Under the pieces are notes generated by a model. The model was given only the letters and a program-made list of their open reading frames with translations, had not been told where the DNA came from and did not search any database. A program made the position numbers and the translations under genes. From positions 6,328,501 through 6,392,500 of the forward strand of contig NZ_JAVDYB010000001.1 of the NCBI RefSeq assembly GCF_031458235.1: DNA of 64,000 bases, in the 5' to 3' direction. This DNA is from Catenuloplanes atrovinosus (GTDB lineage: Bacteria; Actinomycetota; Actinomycetes; Mycobacteriales; Micromonosporaceae). Of this stretch, positions 2,846 through 47,809 are shown piece after piece. Numbering within the stretch: position 1 is the first letter of the stretch; every line of letters starts with the position of its first letter.

Positions 2846-3120
2846 ACCGGTCGTCGCTAGCTAGCGCTCCTTCCTGCCGGTGCCGTGGGTGGCCTGCCGG
2901 TCACGCGTGCCGGGTCGGCGCGATGCACACGCGACGACGCGGACCGGCGGGCTGGCCCGGCTACGGAACGGTGGGGCTGAGACCCGCCCGAACCGGCGTG
3001 GCCGCGGGACCGGCGGGGCTACGCAACGGTGCGGCGGGGAACCGGCCGGGCCGCGGAACCGGCGCGGTCACGCAACGGTGCGGCGGGAAGCCGGCGGCGG
3101 GACGGTGGGCCGTGTCGGGG
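2846..3120. other. Intergenic gap with short direct repeats
   Basis: No gene is supported here. An exact 18-bp direct repeat, ACGCAACGGTGCGGCGGG, occurs at 3021-3038 and 3070-3087, with a degenerate third unit near 2963, giving a period of about 50-58 bp. Long open frames crossing the gap are shadows with no start signal or recognisable protein. Confidence 0.5.
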
Positions 3121-19840: not shown

Positions 19841-21664
19841 ATGCGTTTCTTCCAGAGCGAGTCCCACCCCAAGCCTGACGACACGACCGACGACAACGAC
19901 CACGGCACCGACACCGTCCGCTCCGAGCCGGTGCCGGTGCCACGCGGCTCCGAGGAGAACGACGTGGCCGACGGCGGCACCCACCGCTCGCCGGACACCG
20001 ACCTCGACGGACGGCCCGGCGACGGTACGGACGCGACCGCGGCCGACCGGCCGCACATCTCCACCGGATTCACGGACTCGGACCCGACGGACACATCGGA
20101 CCTCTCGGACACTACCCGCCGGGATGACCCGGGCGCGGACGACTCGACGGCCGCGGACCGGCCGCACTTCTCCATCGGCGCGGTCGACCAGGACCCCGCC
20201 GGCCCGGACTCCACCGACCTGGACCGGGACGGCGACGACAGCTCGGTGCGGACCGGGGAGCCGGTCGACGCCGAGGTGGTCCCGGCCGGGACCACGGACG
20301 ACGAGCCGGTGTTCGTCGAGCCGGTGCCGCAGGAGACCGCGTTCGGCGCGGCCACGGTGGGCGGCGCCGTGGCGGCGTCCGAGCTGGCGGCGCGCCGCGA
20401 GATCGACGACCCGGACGCGCCGGCGGTGGCGACCGCCCCGGTGCCGCAGACCGGCGCCGAGCGGACGGACGCGTTCGGCACGCCGGTGGCGGCGGAGTCG
20501 CCGTCGGAGTTCGGCCGGGAGGGCGATCTGGCCGAGGAGTCGCCGTGGGACTCGCACCGGACCGGGGACGGCCCGGCCGGCACCGACGAGGCGGCCGAGG
20601 ACGAGGCCGCGCAGTCCCCGCACGATTTCGGCCGCGTGGGCGACACCGACGACGAGGCCGCGCAGTCCCCCCACGAGTTCGGCCGTGCGGGCGACGCGAC
20701 CGGCACCCACGACGCGACCGACACCGACGGCGCCGACGCGGATCGGGCCGAGGATTCCGGGACCGCGGCCGACCGGGACCCGGGCCACGTCGAGGGGTTC
20801 GGCACGGCCGACCGCACCGATGACGAGGGCTTCGGCACGGCCGACCGCACGGATGAGGACGAGGGCTTCGGTGCGGCGGACCGCACGGACGGGGACAAGG
20901 GCTTCGGTGCGGCGGACCGCACGGACGGGGACGAGAACGACAAGCCGCTTCGGGCCGAGAGCGTCGGGGAGCCCGCGCACATCGAGGGGTTCGGCGCGGC
21001 CGGCGCGACCACCACCACCGATGAGACCGCCGCGAGTGAGCGGCTGGCCGAGGAGGACCGGCCCGGGGACGAGGCGGACACGTCCGGTTCCGGACACACC
21101 GCGGCGCTCGGCGCGGCGGCGGCCGGTGCCGTGGCCGGGGTCGCCGCCGCCGGTGCGGTCGGCGCGGCGCGGGCCGCGCGATCGGCGGACTCCGACGACC
21201 ACGACACCCCGACCGGCACGACGGACCGGGACCGGGACGGCGACGGGCGCGTCAACGGCGAGCCGGCCACGCCGGTCACCGGCGCCGCGGTGCCGATCGA
21301 GCCGATCCCGGCGCCGGCCGACGCGGAGACGCGGGACGCGACCACCGTGGACGAGCCGGTCGAGCTGCTCCCCGGCGACGTGCCGGAGCAGCCCGCGCTG
21401 GCCGCGTTCTTCAGCGAGAGCGCGGCGAGCGACTTCCGCGACCGGTGGCGCGAGGTCCAGCTCCGCTTCGTCGACGACCCGGCCCAGGCCGCGGCGGACG
21501 CGGGCACGCTGGTCGACGAGGTGGTGGCCGCACTCAACGCGGCGATCGCCGAACAGCGCGAGGCACTCGGCGGCGCGCACGCCGGCGGCCAGAGCGACAC
21601 CGAGCAGCTGCGGGTCCTGGTCCGCCGCCAGCGCGACTTCCTGGACCGCATCCTCGGCCTCTGA
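19841..21664 (+). CDS. Large acidic repeat-containing protein, paralogous C-terminal domain
   Basis: A 607-residue, very Asp/Glu/Thr/Gly-rich protein with no signal peptide at the start (MRFFQSESHPKPDDTTDD). Residues 319-365 hold four tandem units of 11-12 residues of the type GFGTADRTDDE/GFGAADRTDGDK. A hydrophobic Ala/Gly stretch (HTAALGAAAAGAVAGVAAAG) around residue 420 could insert in a membrane. The C-terminal 85 residues (FFSESAASDFRDRWREVQLR onward) form the only conserved-looking domain, similar to the preceding gene product. Function unknown; the acidic part is probably disordered. GAGGAG lies 7 bp before the ATG. Antisense and alternative-frame long ORFs across it are composition artefacts. 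Confidence 0.82.
   Translation: MRFFQSESHPKPDDTTDDNDHGTDTVRSEPVPVPRGSEENDVADGGTHRSPDTDLDGRPGDGTDATAADRPHISTGFTDSDPTDTSDLSDTTRRDDPGADDSTAADRPHFSIGAVDQDPAGPDSTDLDRDGDDSSVRTGEPVDAEVVPAGTTDDEPVFVEPVPQETAFGAATVGGAVAASELAARREIDDPDAPAVATAPVPQTGAERTDAFGTPVAAESPSEFGREGDLAEESPWDSHRTGDGPAGTDEAAEDEAAQSPHDFGRVGDTDDEAAQSPHEFGRAGDATGTHDATDTDGADADRAEDSGTAADRDPGHVEGFGTADRTDDEGFGTADRTDEDEGFGAADRTDGDKGFGAADRTDGDENDKPLRAESVGEPAHIEGFGAAGATTTTDETAASERLAEEDRPGDEADTSGSGHTAALGAAAAGAVAGVAAAGAVGAARAARSADSDDHDTPTGTTDRDRDGDGRVNGEPATPVTGAAVPIEPIPAPADAETRDATTVDEPVELLPGDVPEQPALAAFFSESAASDFRDRWREVQLRFVDDPAQAAADAGTLVDEVVAALNAAIAEQREALGGAHAGGQSDTEQLRVLVRRQRDFLDRILGL
20795..20935 (+). repeat. In-gene tandem repeat (11-12 codon units)
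   Basis: Four units start at 20795, 20828, 20864 and 20900 (33, 36, 36 and 36 bp). The last two are identical except for the final AAG/GAG codon, suggesting recent duplication inside the acidic gene. Confidence 0.8.
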
Positions 21665-21778: not shown

Positions 21779-21880
21779 GCGGCCCCCACACGCGTGCGGC
21801 CCCCACACGAGCGCGGCCCCCACACGAGCGCGGCCCCCACACGCGTGCGCCCCTCACACGCGTGCGGCCTTCACACGTGT
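21779..21880. repeat. Tandem repeat array, 17-bp period
   Basis: Six consecutive 17-bp units of consensus GCGGCCCCCACACGMGY (21779, 21796, 21813, 21830, 21847, 21864), then degenerate GCGGCAGCCGC units up to about 21920. It lies in the 295-bp gap between two convergent genes. The units are contiguous without spacers, so this is not a CRISPR array. Confidence 0.8.
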
Positions 21881-21959
21881 GCGGCAGCCGCGCACGGTGT
21901 GCGGCAGCCGCACACAGGTGCGCCGGACGGGGGTGACGGCGCGGCCCCTGGTGGATCGG

Positions 21960-23243
21960 TCAGTGGCGGGACGGGCGGCGGCGGTCGCGGAGGCCGAGCA
22001 GTGCGCCGACCTGCGCGCCCACCACGGCGGCGGCGGCCAGTACGGCGGAGACCGCGAGCGGGAGCGGGCCGCGGTCGTTGCCGTCCAGCCCCTTGGCGCC
22101 GTTGAGTCCGCCCAGCGGGTCCTCGCCCTGGTGCGGCGCCTCGGGCGCCCCCTGGCCGCCGGGCGCGGGAGCCTGGGTGGACGGCGCCTGGGTGGCCGGG
22201 GCCGGGGCGGGAGTCGGTGCCGAGGTGGACGGTGCGGACGTGCCGGGTGCGGGGGTGGCCGCGCCGCCGGGTGCCGCGGGCGTGGGGTCCGTGACGTCGG
22301 GGGCGGTGCCGGGCGGCGTGGCGGTGACCGGCGGCGGCGCGTCGACCAGGCCGGTCGCGTGCTCGCGTACCCCCCGGTCCTTGGCGTTCTCCGGCAGGTG
22401 CAGGAAGTCGCCGGCCCGGATCACGTCGGGGTCGTCGATGCCGTTGAGCTGCGCCAGCTCCGGGTAGCGCTCGAAGTCGCCGAGGTAGCGGTCCGCGATC
22501 GCGCCCAGGTAGTCGTCCTGCTCGACGCGGTAGACCGGGTCGCCGGGCAGTGCCTCCGTGGCGGGCGCCCGGTAGGCCTGGCCACCGGCCTCGCCCGCGG
22601 TGCCGCCCGCGGCCGCGTGCGTCGGGGCGCTCCCCGGCGTACCGCTCCAGGGGCCTTGGTCCCAGGCGCCGCTCGCGGCGACCAGGTCCGGCCGGGCCGG
22701 CGCGGCGCCGAATCCGGCGGTGTACGTGGGAGCGGCGCTCTGGTAGCCGACGTGCAGCGGCGTGTCGCCGGGGATGCCGATGCTCGGCGCCGCCGCGGCC
22801 GGCGCGACGCCGCTGGGCACGGTCTGCGCGGCGCCGAGGCCGAGCGCGGACGCGGAGGCCGCCGCGCCGGTGGAGACGATCAGCGTGACGGACGCGATCA
22901 GCGCGGTCGCCATCCGCTGCTGGGTGCGCATGCCGGGCAGGTGCGGCGCCGGTACGCGCAGCACCAGCGCGACCAGTTCGACCAGCACGGACAGCGTGAA
23001 CGTGAGCCAGCCCAGCCAGCCGACGAGCGCCAGCGCGCGCAGGAAGAGCTGCCCGTCGTCCGGGCTGGTCAGCGTCGCGACGGCCGCGTCCAGCGTGGGC
23101 AGCCGGTCCGGGATCGGGTTGCCGGCGACCGCGTAGAGCGCGATCGGCGCGCCGGCCAGCAGGCCGACGAGCAGCACGAGCCCGGCCAGCCCGGTCGTGA
23201 TCCGCCCGATCCTTCGCGGTACGGAGATCCGTGTGCTCGTCAT
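21960..23243 (-). CDS. Membrane protein with LysM domain, last gene of the Tad operon
   Basis: A 427-residue protein. Three membrane segments occur in the first 140 residues (TTGLAGLVLLVGLLAGAPIA; ALALVGWLGWLTFTLSVLVE; ATALIASVTLIVSTGAAASA). A LysM-like domain is at about 240-290 (YRVEQDDYLGAIADRYLGDF, DVIRAGDFLHLP). A Pro/Thr/Ala linker leads to a C-terminal helix (LPLAVSAVLAAAAVVGAQVG) ending in RRRPSRH. LysM proteins bind peptidoglycan, so this may hold the Tad machinery to the wall. It lies 23 bp after the last TadE/TadG-like gene. Related LysM-membrane proteins sit in tad loci of other Micromonosporaceae as far as I recall. Its exact role is unknown. Confidence 0.85.
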   Translation of the reverse strand: MTSTRISVPRRIGRITTGLAGLVLLVGLLAGAPIALYAVAGNPIPDRLPTLDAAVATLTSPDDGQLFLRALALVGWLGWLTFTLSVLVELVALVLRVPAPHLPGMRTQQRMATALIASVTLIVSTGAAASASALGLGAAQTVPSGVAPAAAAPSIGIPGDTPLHVGYQSAAPTYTAGFGAAPARPDLVAASGAWDQGPWSGTPGSAPTHAAAGGTAGEAGGQAYRAPATEALPGDPVYRVEQDDYLGAIADRYLGDFERYPELAQLNGIDDPDVIRAGDFLHLPENAKDRGVREHATGLVDAPPPVTATPPGTAPDVTDPTPAAPGGAATPAPGTSAPSTSAPTPAPAPATQAPSTQAPAPGGQGAPEAPHQGEDPLGGLNGAKGLDGNDRGPLPLAVSAVLAAAAVVGAQVGALLGLRDRRRPSRH

Positions 23244-43916: not shown

Positions 43917-44717
43917 GTGGATCTCAATACGATCTCCGAGGTCGTGGCGGTGCGCGAGGCGCCGGACACGGCCGGGTGGCGACCCGGCGACGCCTGGCTG
44001 GGCGGCGGCACCTGGCTCTTCTCCGAGCCGCAGCCGCGACTGCGCCGGCTGATCGACCTGCCGAGCCTGGGCTGGCCCGCGCTGACCGTCACGGACCAGG
44101 GCCTGGAGATCGCGGCGACCTGCACGCTCGCCCAGTTGCACGCGTTCGCGGCGTCGGACGACTGGCTCGCGGCCCGGCTGTTCCCGCTCGCCTGCCGCGC
44201 GCTGCTCGGCAGCTTCAAGATCTGGAACGCGGCCACGGTCGGCGGCAACATCTGCCTCGCGTTGCCGGCCGGGCCGATGATCTCGCTGACCGCCGCGCTG
44301 GACGGCGTCTGCACGATCTGGGGGCCGTCCGGGTCGCGCGCGCTGCCCGTGCGCGAGATGGTCACCGGCCCGCAGCGGAACGCGCTGGCCCCGGGCGAGC
44401 TGCTGCGCTCGGTGCACCTGCCGGTCGCGGCGCTGCGCTCGCCGGCCGCGTTCCGGCAGACGTCGCTGAGCCCGGTTGGCCGGTCCGCGGCGCTGCTGAT
44501 CGGGCGGCGCACCGCCGGGCTGGAGCTGACCGTGACCGCGTCCGTGATCCGGCCGCTGCGGCTGTCCTTCCCGGCGCCACCCACCGCGGCCGAGCTGCGC
44601 GACGCCATCGCCGCGGTCCCGGCCGACACCTACCACGACGACGTGCACGGCACCCCCGCCTGGCGCCGCCACATGACGTTCGAGCTCGCCGAGGAGATCC
44701 GGGCGGAGCTGGCATGA
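43917..44717 (+). CDS. Xanthine dehydrogenase-type FAD-binding subunit
   Basis: A 266-residue FAD subunit of the molybdenum hydroxylase family. FAD motifs are AWLGGGTWLFSEPQPRLRRL and TVGGNICLALPAGPM, with the CO-dehydrogenase flavoprotein C-terminal part after residue 170. It passes electrons from the Fe-S/Mo subunit to NAD or another acceptor. The GTG at 43917 has GGGAG 10 bp upstream. The stop overlaps an ATG at 44714 that begins the repeat region before the large subunit. The substrate is probably a purine given the guanine deaminase gene downstream. Confidence 0.9.
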   Translation: MDLNTISEVVAVREAPDTAGWRPGDAWLGGGTWLFSEPQPRLRRLIDLPSLGWPALTVTDQGLEIAATCTLAQLHAFAASDDWLAARLFPLACRALLGSFKIWNAATVGGNICLALPAGPMISLTAALDGVCTIWGPSGSRALPVREMVTGPQRNALAPGELLRSVHLPVAALRSPAAFRQTSLSPVGRSAALLIGRRTAGLELTVTASVIRPLRLSFPAPPTAAELRDAIAAVPADTYHDDVHGTPAWRRHMTFELAEEIRAELA

Positions 44718-44980
44718 GCGAGCTTGCGAGCGAATCATCGGCTCAGCGCCGACCACCCGCCGACCGCACCAACCCACCCCAACCCGGCACCAGTGAGCTT
44801 GCGAGCGAATCATCGGCTCAGCGCCGACCACCCACCCACCGCACCAACCCACCCCAACCCGGCACCAGCGAGCTTGCGAGCGAATCATCGGCTCAGCGCC
44901 GACCACCCACCCACCGCACCAACCCACCCCAACCCGGCACCAGCGAGCTTGCGAGCGAATCATCGGCTCAGCGGCGTCCC
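44717..44980. repeat. 75-bp tandem repeat (3.5 units) between the two dehydrogenase genes
   Basis: Units start at 44717, 44792, 44867 and 44942 (the last partial). Each begins with AGCGAGCTTGCGAGCGAATC (AGTGAG in unit 2) and includes CAACCCACCCCAACCCGG. All units are multiples of three and keep the frame open from ATG 44714 to the large subunit (25-residue unit beginning SELASESSAQRRPP). The other strand also stays open. Units 2 and 3 are nearly identical, so the expansion is recent. Confidence 0.9.
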
Positions 44981-45013
44981 GGGCCGGAACCGCAGCGTGG
45001 AGGGCCGGCCAGC

Positions 45014-47809
45014 ATGAGGATCGACGGGAGGGATGCGGCCGGGGTGCCGCGGCCGGGGCAGTGTCTGCGCACGTTCCTGCGGGAGCAGGGGGCGTTCGGT
45101 GTGCGCAAGGGCTGCGACGCCGGTGACTGCGGCGCCTGCACCGTGTGGCTGGACGGGACGCCGGTGCACAGCTGCGTGACGCCCGCGTTCCGCGCGGAGG
45201 GCCGCGAGGTCACCACCGTCCAGGGCCTGGCCACCGGCGACGAGTTGCACCCGGTGCAGCGCGGGTTCCTGGAGGCGCAGGGCTTCCAGTGCGGGTTCTG
45301 CACCAGCGGCATGATCATGACGGCGGCCGCGCTGGACGAGGCGCAGCGCGCCGACCTGCCGCACGCGCTCAAGGGCAACCTGTGCCGGTGCACCGGCTAC
45401 CGCGCGATCGAGGACGCGATCAACGGCGTGCGGCACGTGGAGGAGCCGGAGCCGGGCGAGGCCGCGGGCCGCAACCTGCCGGCCCCGGCGTCGCGCGCGA
45501 TCGTCACCGGCACCGCGCTGTTCACGCTGGATCTGCCGCCGGACGGGCTGCTGCACATGAAGCTGCTGCGCTCGCCGCACGCGCACGCCCGGATCGTGGC
45601 GATCGACACCAGCGCGGCGCTGGCCGTACCGGGCGTGCGCGCGGTCCTGACCCACGAGGACGCGCCGAAGCGGCTGTTCTCCAGTGCGCGGCACGAGCAC
45701 ATGACGGACGACCCGGACGACACCCGCGTGCTGGACGACGTGGTCCGGCACGTCGGGCAGCGGGTCGCGGCCGTGGTCGCGGAGACCGTGGCCGCGGCCG
45801 AGGAGGGCGTGCGCGCGCTGGTCGTGGAGTACGAGGTGCTGCCCGCGGTGTTCGACCCGGAGCTGGCGATGCGGCCGGGCGCGCCGGTGATCCACGCCAA
45901 GCCGGCCGAGGAGTCCCGGATCGCGTTCCCGGAGCGCAACACGGTCGCGGAGATCCACGGCAATCTGGGCGACGTGGCGGCCGGTTTCGACGAGGCCGAC
46001 GTGATCTACGAGCAGATCTTCCACACCCAGCGCGTGCAGCACGCCGCGATGGAGACGCACGGCTGTGTGGCCTGGGTGGACGAGCGCGGCGCGCTGACCG
46101 TGCGGACCAGCTCGCAGGTGCCGTTCCTGACCCGGCAGGCGCTGTGCGCGGTGTTCAACCTGCCGCCGGAGCACGTGCGGGTGCTGACCGTGCGGGTCGG
46201 CGGCGGCTTCGGCGGCAAGCAGGAGATGCTGGTCGAGGACGTGGCCGCGCTGGCCGCGCTGCGCCTGGGCCGGCCGGTGCAGCTGGAGCTGACCCGCGAG
46301 GAGCAGTTCACCGGCACCACCAGCCGGCACCCCATGGCCATCTGGGTACGGGCCGGCGCGCGCGAGGACGGCACGCTGACCGCGCTGCAGCTGCGCGTGG
46401 TCTCGGACACCGGCGCGTACGCGAACCACGCGGTGGGCGTGCTGCACCACGGCTGCGGTGAGTCGATCGCGGTCTACCGCTGCCCGAACAAGAAGGTCGA
46501 CGCGTACGCGGTCTACACGAACACGGTGCCGGCCGGCGCGTTCCGCGGGTACGGGCTGAGCCAGACCATCTTCGCGGTCGAGTCCGCGATGGACGAGCTG
46601 GCCCGCATGCTGCACCTGGACCCGGTCGCGTTCCGGGAGCGCAACGTGGTGCGGCCGGGCGACCCGATGGTCTCGGTCAGCAACGAACTGGACGACGTGG
46701 AGTACGGCAGCTACGGCCTCGACCAGTGCCTGACGCTGGTCCGGGACGCGCTGGCGGACGCGCCGGAGGAGGCGCCGGGCCCGGGCTGGCTGACCGGCGA
46801 CGGCGTGGCGCTGTCGCTGATAAACACGATCCCGCCGCGCGGCCATCACGCGGAGGCGGACGTGCGGCTGCTGCCGGACGGTACGTACCAGCTGATGGTC
46901 GGCACCACGGAGTTCGGCAACGGCACCTCCACCGTGCACCTGCAGCTGGCCGCGACCGCGCTGGGCACCACGCCGGACCGGGTCGCGATCGCGCAGTCGG
47001 ACACCGCGCTGGTCGCGCACGACACCGGCGCGTACGGCTCGACCGGCGTGGTGGTGGCCGCCCGCGCGACGTTGCTGGCCGCGCGGGCGCTGCGCGAGCG
47101 TCTCCAGGCGGCGGCCGGGCTGCTGACCACGTTGCCGCCGGAGGAGTGCGAGCTGACCGCGGACGGCGTGGTCTGCGGCTCCGGCACCATGCTCGGCCTG
47201 CCGGAGCTGCACCGGCGCGCGACCGAGGGCGGCTTGCCGACCGGGGCGCACGCGGTGACGGACGGCACGCCGCGCTCGGTGGCGTTCAACGTGCACGGCT
47301 TCCGGGTCGCGGTGCGCCCGCGTACCGGCGAGATCAAGATCTTGAAGAGCGTGCAGGCCGCGGACGCCGGCGTGGCGATGAACCCGATGCAGTTGCGCGG
47401 GCAGATCGAGGGTGGCGTGGCACAGGCGCTGGGCGCGGCGGTCTACGAGGAGATGCGGATCGGGCCGGACGGCCGCGTGGTCAACCCGGCGCTGCGCGGC
47501 TATCACGTGCCGCAGTTCGCCGACGTGCCGCGCACCGAGGTGCTGCTGGCCGAGACGGAGGACGCGCTGGGCCCGCTGGGCGCGAAGTCGATGAGCGAGA
47601 GCCCGTTCAACCCGGTGGCGCCCGCGCTGGCGAACGCGGTCCGGGACGCGACCGGCGTACGGCTGACGTCGCTGCCGCTGGCCCGCGACCGGGTGTGGGA
47701 GGCGCTGGCGCTGGCCGGCGTGACCGCGGACGACCCGGCCGGCGGCCCCGCGCACGCGGTCTCGCTCGCGGCCGGGCTGCCCGAGGAGACGGCGGTGGAG
47801 CGGCGATGA
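45014..47809 (+). CDS. Xanthine dehydrogenase-type fused [2Fe-2S]/molybdopterin subunit
   Basis: A 931-residue molybdenum hydroxylase large subunit. N-terminal [2Fe-2S] domains: CDAGDCGACTVWLDGTPVHSC and CGFCTSGMIMTAA with NLCRCTGYRAI. The Moco domains follow from about residue 160 (TGTALFTLDLPPDG), with VGGGFGGKQEMLVEDV, GAFRGYGLSQTIFAVESA, QIEGGVAQALGAAV and the catalytic glutamate in GAKSMSESPFNPV. The fused Fe-S/Mo form with a separate FAD subunit resembles aldehyde oxidoreductases and some actinobacterial xanthine dehydrogenases. ATG 45014 has GGAGGG 8 bp upstream; ATG 44714 would prepend 100 residues of repeat translation. Overlaps the deaminase gene by ATGA. Confidence 0.92.
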   Translation: MRIDGRDAAGVPRPGQCLRTFLREQGAFGVRKGCDAGDCGACTVWLDGTPVHSCVTPAFRAEGREVTTVQGLATGDELHPVQRGFLEAQGFQCGFCTSGMIMTAAALDEAQRADLPHALKGNLCRCTGYRAIEDAINGVRHVEEPEPGEAAGRNLPAPASRAIVTGTALFTLDLPPDGLLHMKLLRSPHAHARIVAIDTSAALAVPGVRAVLTHEDAPKRLFSSARHEHMTDDPDDTRVLDDVVRHVGQRVAAVVAETVAAAEEGVRALVVEYEVLPAVFDPELAMRPGAPVIHAKPAEESRIAFPERNTVAEIHGNLGDVAAGFDEADVIYEQIFHTQRVQHAAMETHGCVAWVDERGALTVRTSSQVPFLTRQALCAVFNLPPEHVRVLTVRVGGGFGGKQEMLVEDVAALAALRLGRPVQLELTREEQFTGTTSRHPMAIWVRAGAREDGTLTALQLRVVSDTGAYANHAVGVLHHGCGESIAVYRCPNKKVDAYAVYTNTVPAGAFRGYGLSQTIFAVESAMDELARMLHLDPVAFRERNVVRPGDPMVSVSNELDDVEYGSYGLDQCLTLVRDALADAPEEAPGPGWLTGDGVALSLINTIPPRGHHAEADVRLLPDGTYQLMVGTTEFGNGTSTVHLQLAATALGTTPDRVAIAQSDTALVAHDTGAYGSTGVVVAARATLLAARALRERLQAAAGLLTTLPPEECELTADGVVCGSGTMLGLPELHRRATEGGLPTGAHAVTDGTPRSVAFNVHGFRVAVRPRTGEIKILKSVQAADAGVAMNPMQLRGQIEGGVAQALGAAVYEEMRIGPDGRVVNPALRGYHVPQFADVPRTEVLLAETEDALGPLGAKSMSESPFNPVAPALANAVRDATGVRLTSLPLARDRVWEALALAGVTADDPAGGPAHAVSLAAGLPEETAVERR

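Follow-up and report, generated by a model that had tools for sequence, protein, structure and literature searches.

The 300-bp tandem array that lies at the junction of two xanthine dehydrogenase genes in Catenuloplanes atrovinosus very probably (probability about 0.85) derives, by expansion, from a family of small mobile repeats whose insertion sites are start codons, mainly in ATGA overlaps, and is here fused in frame with the downstream gene. The window, i.e. the whole analysed stretch of 64,000 nucleotides, corresponds to positions 6328501–6392500 of one contig of 8,906,892 bases. It carries genes for a P450-domain protein, an FAD_binding_5 subunit, a 2Fe-2S/molybdopterin large subunit and a protein with a cytidine/deoxycytidylate deaminase domain. 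The gene of the FAD-binding subunit (43917–44717, plus strand; Pfam FAD_binding_5, E = 6e-19) ends with the TGA codon at 44715–44717. The large-subunit gene (45014–47809, plus strand), starting at the codon equivalent to the orthologue start, encodes 931 residues with the Pfam domains Fer2, Fer2_2, Ald_Xan_dh_C, MoCoBD_1 and MoCoBD_2. At the next junction of the operon, the large-subunit stop and the start of the deaminase-domain gene share a repeat-free ATGA (47806–47809, plus strand; assigned from the letters and Pfam). By Pfam, the large subunit named in the sequence-only reading is corrected to a fusion of 2Fe-2S and molybdopterin parts, followed by the deaminase-domain gene.

Tandem Repeats Finder (TRF) reported the array at 44717–44973 with a period of 75, 3.4 copies, 97% match and a score of 493, the best of 58 rows for the window. 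A 20-base core occurs in the window four times at up to 3 mismatches and never in 100 shuffles. The tandem 75-bp repeat noticed earlier between the two genes is thereby confirmed. Its number of units, initially put at three and a half, is four: plus-strand units at 44717–44791, 44792–44866, 44867–44941 (all three by TRF and the family model described below) and 44942–45016, together 300 bp (44717–45016). The 5’-ends of the second and third units have no start codon. TRF drops the 3’-half of the fourth unit because this half differs from units 1–3; it matches the 3’-end typical of the family. Aligned with two typical 74-bp terminal units, the fourth unit contains one extra base near the middle. 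The family model applied with E-values up to 1 retrieved the four units of the array and nothing further in the window. The array opens within the ATGA at 44714–44717 (plus strand), where the FAD-subunit stop overlaps the start of the repeat ORF and GGAG is present upstream at 44705–44708, and closes in a second ATGA at 45014–45017, so that its last unit ends in the ATG at 45014–45016. The Shine-Dalgarno-like GGAGG of the large-subunit start (44999–45003) falls inside the fourth unit. Hence the array does not lie exactly between the FAD-subunit stop and the large-subunit ribosome-binding site, as had been described: it starts in the former and includes the latter.

Since the array consists of four 75-bp units, ATG 44714 and ATG 45014 share a frame. 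There are no stops between them, and the resulting fused ORF (44714–47809, plus strand) has 1031 residues vs 931 from ATG 45014, the repeat part accounting for 100 residues. The frame of the 100-residue repeat leader proposed from the sequence is therefore indeed open. Such a leader would be an addition, because the start of the orthologue in C. japonicus corresponds to ATG 45014 and the Fer2 homology begins at residue 112 of the fused ORF (Pfam). The open frame is by itself weak evidence, 71% of composition-matched shuffled 75-mers being open in frame 0. The frame had also been described as open on both strands. This stands for the plus strand from ATG 44714 to 45014; on the minus strand one of the three frames is stop-free, and at this base composition the open antisense frame was rejected as a meaningful feature.

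The window contains several other tandem repeats. A 49-bp repeat (2.2 copies, 84% match) is located at 2990–3097. Within a 607-aa ORF (19841–21664), arrays of 51 bp × 2.0 and 36 bp × 4.1 at 20595–20935 encode acidic repeats such as EGFGTADRTDD. A 17-bp array of 6.3 copies, GCGGCCCCCACACGCGT, occupies 21779–21885 between the end of the same ORF and a minus-strand ORF at 21960–23243, whose translation we take to be LysM-like.

Allowing up to one mismatch, the genome contains the core 92 times, 45 of them in forward and 47 in reverse orientation, and never the reversed core pattern. With ATG or GTG required in front of the core and up to two mismatches allowed, 122 matches were found. A sequence-only family model, built from 46 aligned units and used with 150 scored candidates per genome in the genus search, yielded at least 153 matches in the genome of the window and 21, 32, 26 and 21 in four congeners. 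The 41 stretches around the 92 matches were divided into 47 sites containing one to seven units each. This set comprises groups of matches with up to one mismatch, further two-mismatch sites and model matches lying outside it. All 47 sites have ATG, GTG or TTG in front of the first core, though the core pattern does not require a start codon. A typical unit, 74 bp long and in many relatives 77 bp, begins at the junction ATG and codes for about 24 residues (MSELASESSAQRRP...); its terminal TGA forms a 4-nt overlap with the following ATG, and a Shine-Dalgarno-like site often precedes this overlap. The 5’ 23 bases of the unit are highly conserved, the degree of conservation being inflated since most members were found by exact match to these bases. 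Two copies (locus L065, G000 about 7250000) lie between genes that we take, from sequence, to be nuoI and nuoJ of respiratory complex I, so at this nuoI/nuoJ-like site the repeat is tolerated inside a central operon.

To trace the layout of the sites we used a script following starts and stops. In 38 of the 47 sites it found a chain of −4 overlaps that leads to an ORF with 50 or more codons. At two more (L036, L046), degenerate units follow the core matches and GTGA or ATGA precedes ORFs of 401 and 398 codons, which brings the number of chaining sites to 40. Six of the remaining seven are fused (L031, L038, L043, L057, L071 and the window array, L062) and one is irregular (L047). The latter, at G000 2620111–2620568, consists of seven units with spacings of 71, 73 and 74 bp, the relay frame being broken in places, and may be decaying. 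When compared with a one-third chance, 40 of 47 gives p = 3e-13; this value is overstated, since the copies inherit their length from a common ancestor and the frame counts describe copies of shared ancestry, not independent events. An ATGA is by itself often followed by an open frame (516 of 894 ATGA in these loci open at least 50 codons). At 41 of the 47 sites the first TGA closes an open frame of at least 80 codons, and some of these frames may not be genes.

Internal start codons follow the frame of the units. They are kept in all 38 internal units whose length is 2 mod 3 and in 6 of 35 units of 72 or 75 bp; four internal units of 64 or 73 bp retain starts despite breaking the relay frame. 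Counted by locus, all 19 relay-length arrays keep every start, and 4 of 14 fused-length ones keep any (Fisher test, 1.1e-5). Of the internal junctions, 29 of 38 with relay-length and 9 of 35 with fused-length units have Shine-Dalgarno-like letters in front, against a background of 10%; at the same background, such a site is present at 25 of 39 starts of downstream genes and at 20 of 47 first starts. Judging by these start codons and letters, internal initiation sites have usually been lost where the frame is fused, which would fit mini-ORFs that are translated. In the window array, the upstream −4 overlap with the FAD-subunit stop is present and the downstream −4 overlap is absent (4 × 75 bp, frame 0). 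In another fused site (L071), the methyltransferase ORF has in-frame starts only at residue 1, within the repeat, and at residue 39; its first cysteines are residues 20 and 23, and a Pfam zinc-binding match, under the curated cut-off, starts from residue 20. Here the repeat may have become a genuine N-terminus.

Orthologous junctions were compared in four congeners, whose FAD-subunit orthologues are 83–87% identical (protein search). The repeat is absent from the xanthine dehydrogenase junction in all four. In G002, which a 100% match over 2001 bases of a named contig identifies as C. japonicus NRRL B-16061, the same 26 bases precede a plain ATGA, directly followed by the large subunit; in the other three (G001, G003, G004) the repeat-free junction has a longer gene overlap, not ATGA. 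Together with six further junctions, 20 of 28 congener loci are repeat-free. Seven of eight query pieces (all but L055) were compared; six of them, with xanthine dehydrogenase, give the 28 loci, the L070 permease piece being represented by the locus of the window's genome alone. L067 and L061 are repeat-free in four of four congeners; at the PiT-transporter, YihY, thymidine-phosphorylase and nuoI/nuoJ-like junctions, two of four congeners lack the repeat in each case (gene names at the six further junctions are our assumption from the sequences). Of the 20 empty loci, 16 are −4 overlaps: 13 by script, one at the xanthine dehydrogenase junction and two nuo loci by eye, the nuoI/nuoJ-like junction having been read in this way because the scripted start was one codon off. 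The other four are three longer overlaps and one ATGG. Seven of the eight filled loci measure 50, 59, 62, 65, 74, 77 and 77 nt; each of these lengths is 2 mod 3, and the TGA overlaps the ATG that follows. The eighth measures 18 nt and is in frame; the 65-, 50- and 18-nt stretches contain no core and are too diverged to be identified with certainty as the same repeat. The two filled PiT loci may represent one old insertion. The YihY junction carries the 77-bp type in C. japonicus vs 74-bp units in the genome of the window. The mobile repeat family suspected in the sequence-only reading is thus strongly supported by the 92 core matches with none for the reversed pattern, by the presence of the core both elsewhere in the genome and in relatives, and by its absence from orthologous congener junctions.

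The repeat occurs patchily across actinomycetes. The core with a start codon, at up to two mismatches, was found in five of five genus genomes (122, 15, 30, 16 and 9 matches), in 58 of 300 genomes of a family sample, two others having 130 and 73 matches, and in 6 of 394 genomes of a class sample, one of them from another family with 61 matches. The sequence model, run on the class sample with stricter filters and 12 scored candidates per genome, detected the family in at least 35 of 388 genomes. Among the matches listed are Actinoplanes, Kutzneria, Pseudonocardia, Amycolatopsis, Kibdelosporangium, Saccharothrix, Nocardia wallacei, Rhodococcus rhodnii, Mycolicibacterium septicum and an Acidimicrobiales MAG. 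The set from other taxa contained at least 120 stretches in 80 loci, three clusters near locus ends being outside the 83 sites classified; among the matches listed, 64 of these 83 chain, 17 are fused and 2 are other, the commonest relay length being 77 bp and the next 74 bp. We also picked, from the model matches listed for the class sample, 20 in twelve other genomes: 18 chain directly, one chains via a 4-codon step and one (L256) does not, and in 16 of the 20 the 5’-end is by eye clearly unlike the core. A sister type with the 5’-end ATGAGCGAGCGNAGCGAGCGAATC (peptide MSERSERI...) was observed in other families of the class (L253–L264 and L271) in the same relay layout. In four loci (L134, L128, L135, L159) just the first 22–27 bases of the unit are left, in frame with the downstream gene; the proteins begin with MSELASES... 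and possibly bear repeat-derived N-terminal tags.

Several known classes of small repeats offer a comparison. Mycobacterial MIRUs are oriented as the flanking genes and have no dyad symmetry; REP elements are small, dispersed, non-autonomous repeats moved by RAYT (Y1 transposases), and MITEs are small dispersed elements without a transposase. The family described here shares small size, dispersion and lack of autonomy with REPs and differs in having no covarying stem; REPs moved by a Y1 transposase were rejected, as Y1_Tnp matched in none of the five genus genomes (the control was positive in 5 of 14), and no mobilising enzyme was found in this search. MITEs are likewise small, dispersed and devoid of a transposase, and the difference is that no terminal inverted repeat rises above shuffles here: in six units the best terminal match was 7–9 of 20, reached by 306 to 492 of 500 shuffles.

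The likeness to MIRUs is closer. A 2025 review (PMC12548453, crediting Supply et al. 1997) describes MIRUs as apparently mobile; they are said to insert at start codons and to bring an ORF whose coupling has a spacing of −4 nt. With tandem units of about 40–100 bp, MIRUs stand at tens of dispersed sites, 41 locations being given for H37Rv (PMC2734929). In the part of PMC4213456 concerned with senX3-regX3, three 77-bp MIRUs are reported for H37Rv and two of 77 and one of 53 bp for CDC1551, and the MIRUs of this operon are said to be restricted to M. leprae and the M. tuberculosis complex. PMC4128351 identifies one 77-nt 5’ UTR of M. bovis as a class I MIRU, the M. marinum gene being leaderless. 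Similarly, units of 74 or 75 bp stand in tandem, one to seven per site, at 47 dispersed sites here; judged from the letters, an insertion at start codons with −4 coupling would be common to both, the overlap being found in 40 of 47 sites and, among those listed elsewhere, in 64 of 83. The MIRU lengths of 77 and 53 bp are 2 mod 3, as is 74 bp, and 77 bp is the commonest relay length among the matches listed for other actinomycetes. The repeats are also oriented as the flanking genes, as implied by the chain at 40 of 47 sites, and have no dyad symmetry (none of six predicted pairs covaries, and six units show no terminal inverted repeat). In contrast to MIRUs, the window array is frame-fused and lacks the −4 overlap on its downstream side, and the family occurs mainly outside Mycobacterium. 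A MIRU primer pattern matched none of 396 Mycobacterium genomes and gave no MIRU sequence to compare; the family is hence likened to MIRUs by described layout, not by sequence alignment, and on this analogy appears MIRU-like, with the window array as a frame-fused variant. Our literature search in open-licence papers, which used partly narrow terms, found no MIRU-like start-codon repeat outside mycobacteria.

The mechanism we propose is, by this analogy, the one described for MIRUs. A ribosome would end the upstream gene, re-initiate on the mini-ORF, end there and re-initiate on the downstream gene; the insertion would be tolerated because the mini-ORF passes the ribosome on. In the window, the unit would have grown to four 75-bp copies, internal starts and stops would have been lost and the last unit would have gained one base, so that the 100-codon repeat ORF continues into the large-subunit gene without a change of frame. 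For ribosomes that have finished the FAD subunit we predict a large subunit extended by 100 residues at its N-terminus, and for those initiating anew at GGAGG/ATG 45014 some native form. The long form is expected since both the GGAG upstream of 44714 and the overlap with the FAD-subunit stop have been preserved. A repeat-coded N-terminus appears plausible here because the array is frame-fused, which is uncommon in the family (six of 47 sites plus one irregular). Our best reading of the product is accordingly put in open form: an extended subunit from ATG 44714, a native one from ATG 45014, or both. Counted against the main reading are the sites that do not chain, 7 of 47 in this genome (six fused, one irregular) and 19 of the 83 listed elsewhere, and the missing downstream −4 overlap of the window array itself. 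The shared ancestry of the copies, the starts retained in four internal units of 64 or 73 bp, the incomplete presence of Shine-Dalgarno-like sites, the three longer gene overlaps at repeat-free xanthine dehydrogenase junctions and the diverged filled stretches speak in the same direction.

The same mobile repeat could also be present as a tolerated spacer, the large subunit being made solely from ATG 45014 and the missing stop being accidental. This is quite possible, though we doubt it: GGAGG lies 10 nt before ATG 45014, the orthologue start is equivalent to this codon and an open frame is common at the composition of the array; however, no stop separates ATG 44714 from the large subunit, re-initiation is expected at ATG 44714, where the FAD-subunit stop overlaps it and the 26 upstream bases are those of the native C. 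japonicus start, and in the fused repeat of L071 the next in-frame start comes as late as residue 39. It is unlikely that the repeats act on transcription, as a promoter or regulator site of the downstream gene with incidental ORFs. Such a role would have parallels in two papers, in which a MIRU-containing region can drive senX3-independent regX3 expression (PMC4213456) and longer repeats before fpg1 go with higher expression in M. tuberculosis (PMC2734929). It leaves the frame and the start-codon pattern unexplained, and a scan of 44600–45100, covering one promoter type, found no sigma-70-like sites (none in shuffles either). A promoter or terminator inside the array was sought in the same region by the sigma-70/terminator scan and none was found.

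An RNA structure or riboregulator in the conserved part is very improbable. The strong conservation of the 5’ 23 bases, inflated by the exact-match search for members, would speak for it, but the predicted fold is no better than that of shuffles (z = 0.66, with 72 of 100 shuffles folding as well), the predicted pairs show no covariation (0 of 6) and there is no Rfam match up to E = 1. A minisatellite arisen by tandem duplication within this gene alone would be tandem and in frame, as the array is; yet the unit stands beside different genes at 47 analysed sites and the orthologous junction is free of it in all four congeners, which leaves this explanation a negligible probability. A minisatellite of one gene is refuted by the 92 dispersed core matches.

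Compared with these alternatives, a mobile repeat inserting at start codons and here fused in frame is the reading we prefer. Going further, and quite tentatively, we suggest that a start-codon-seeking actinomycete element hides in operons by means of a ribosome-passing mini-ORF. A shift from 74 to 75 bp would turn it into coding sequence and, in the window, extend the N-terminus of a xanthine-dehydrogenase-type enzyme by 25 residues per unit, with a length variable in frame between strains; its mover would be other than a Y1 transposase, and it would have no terminal inverted repeats.

If the main reading is right, MIRU-like behaviour extends across actinomycetes and is not a mycobacterial peculiarity. 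The repeats would then constitute many natural experiments in termination-reinitiation, the number of required re-initiations being set by the copy number and the choice of 74- vs 75-bp units switching between relay and fusion. For annotation they carry a warning, since proteins starting with MSELASES... may have misplaced starts or an N-terminus that stems from the repeat. The movement of start-codon insertions becomes accessible to study in genomes that, like this one, contain more than 100 copies.
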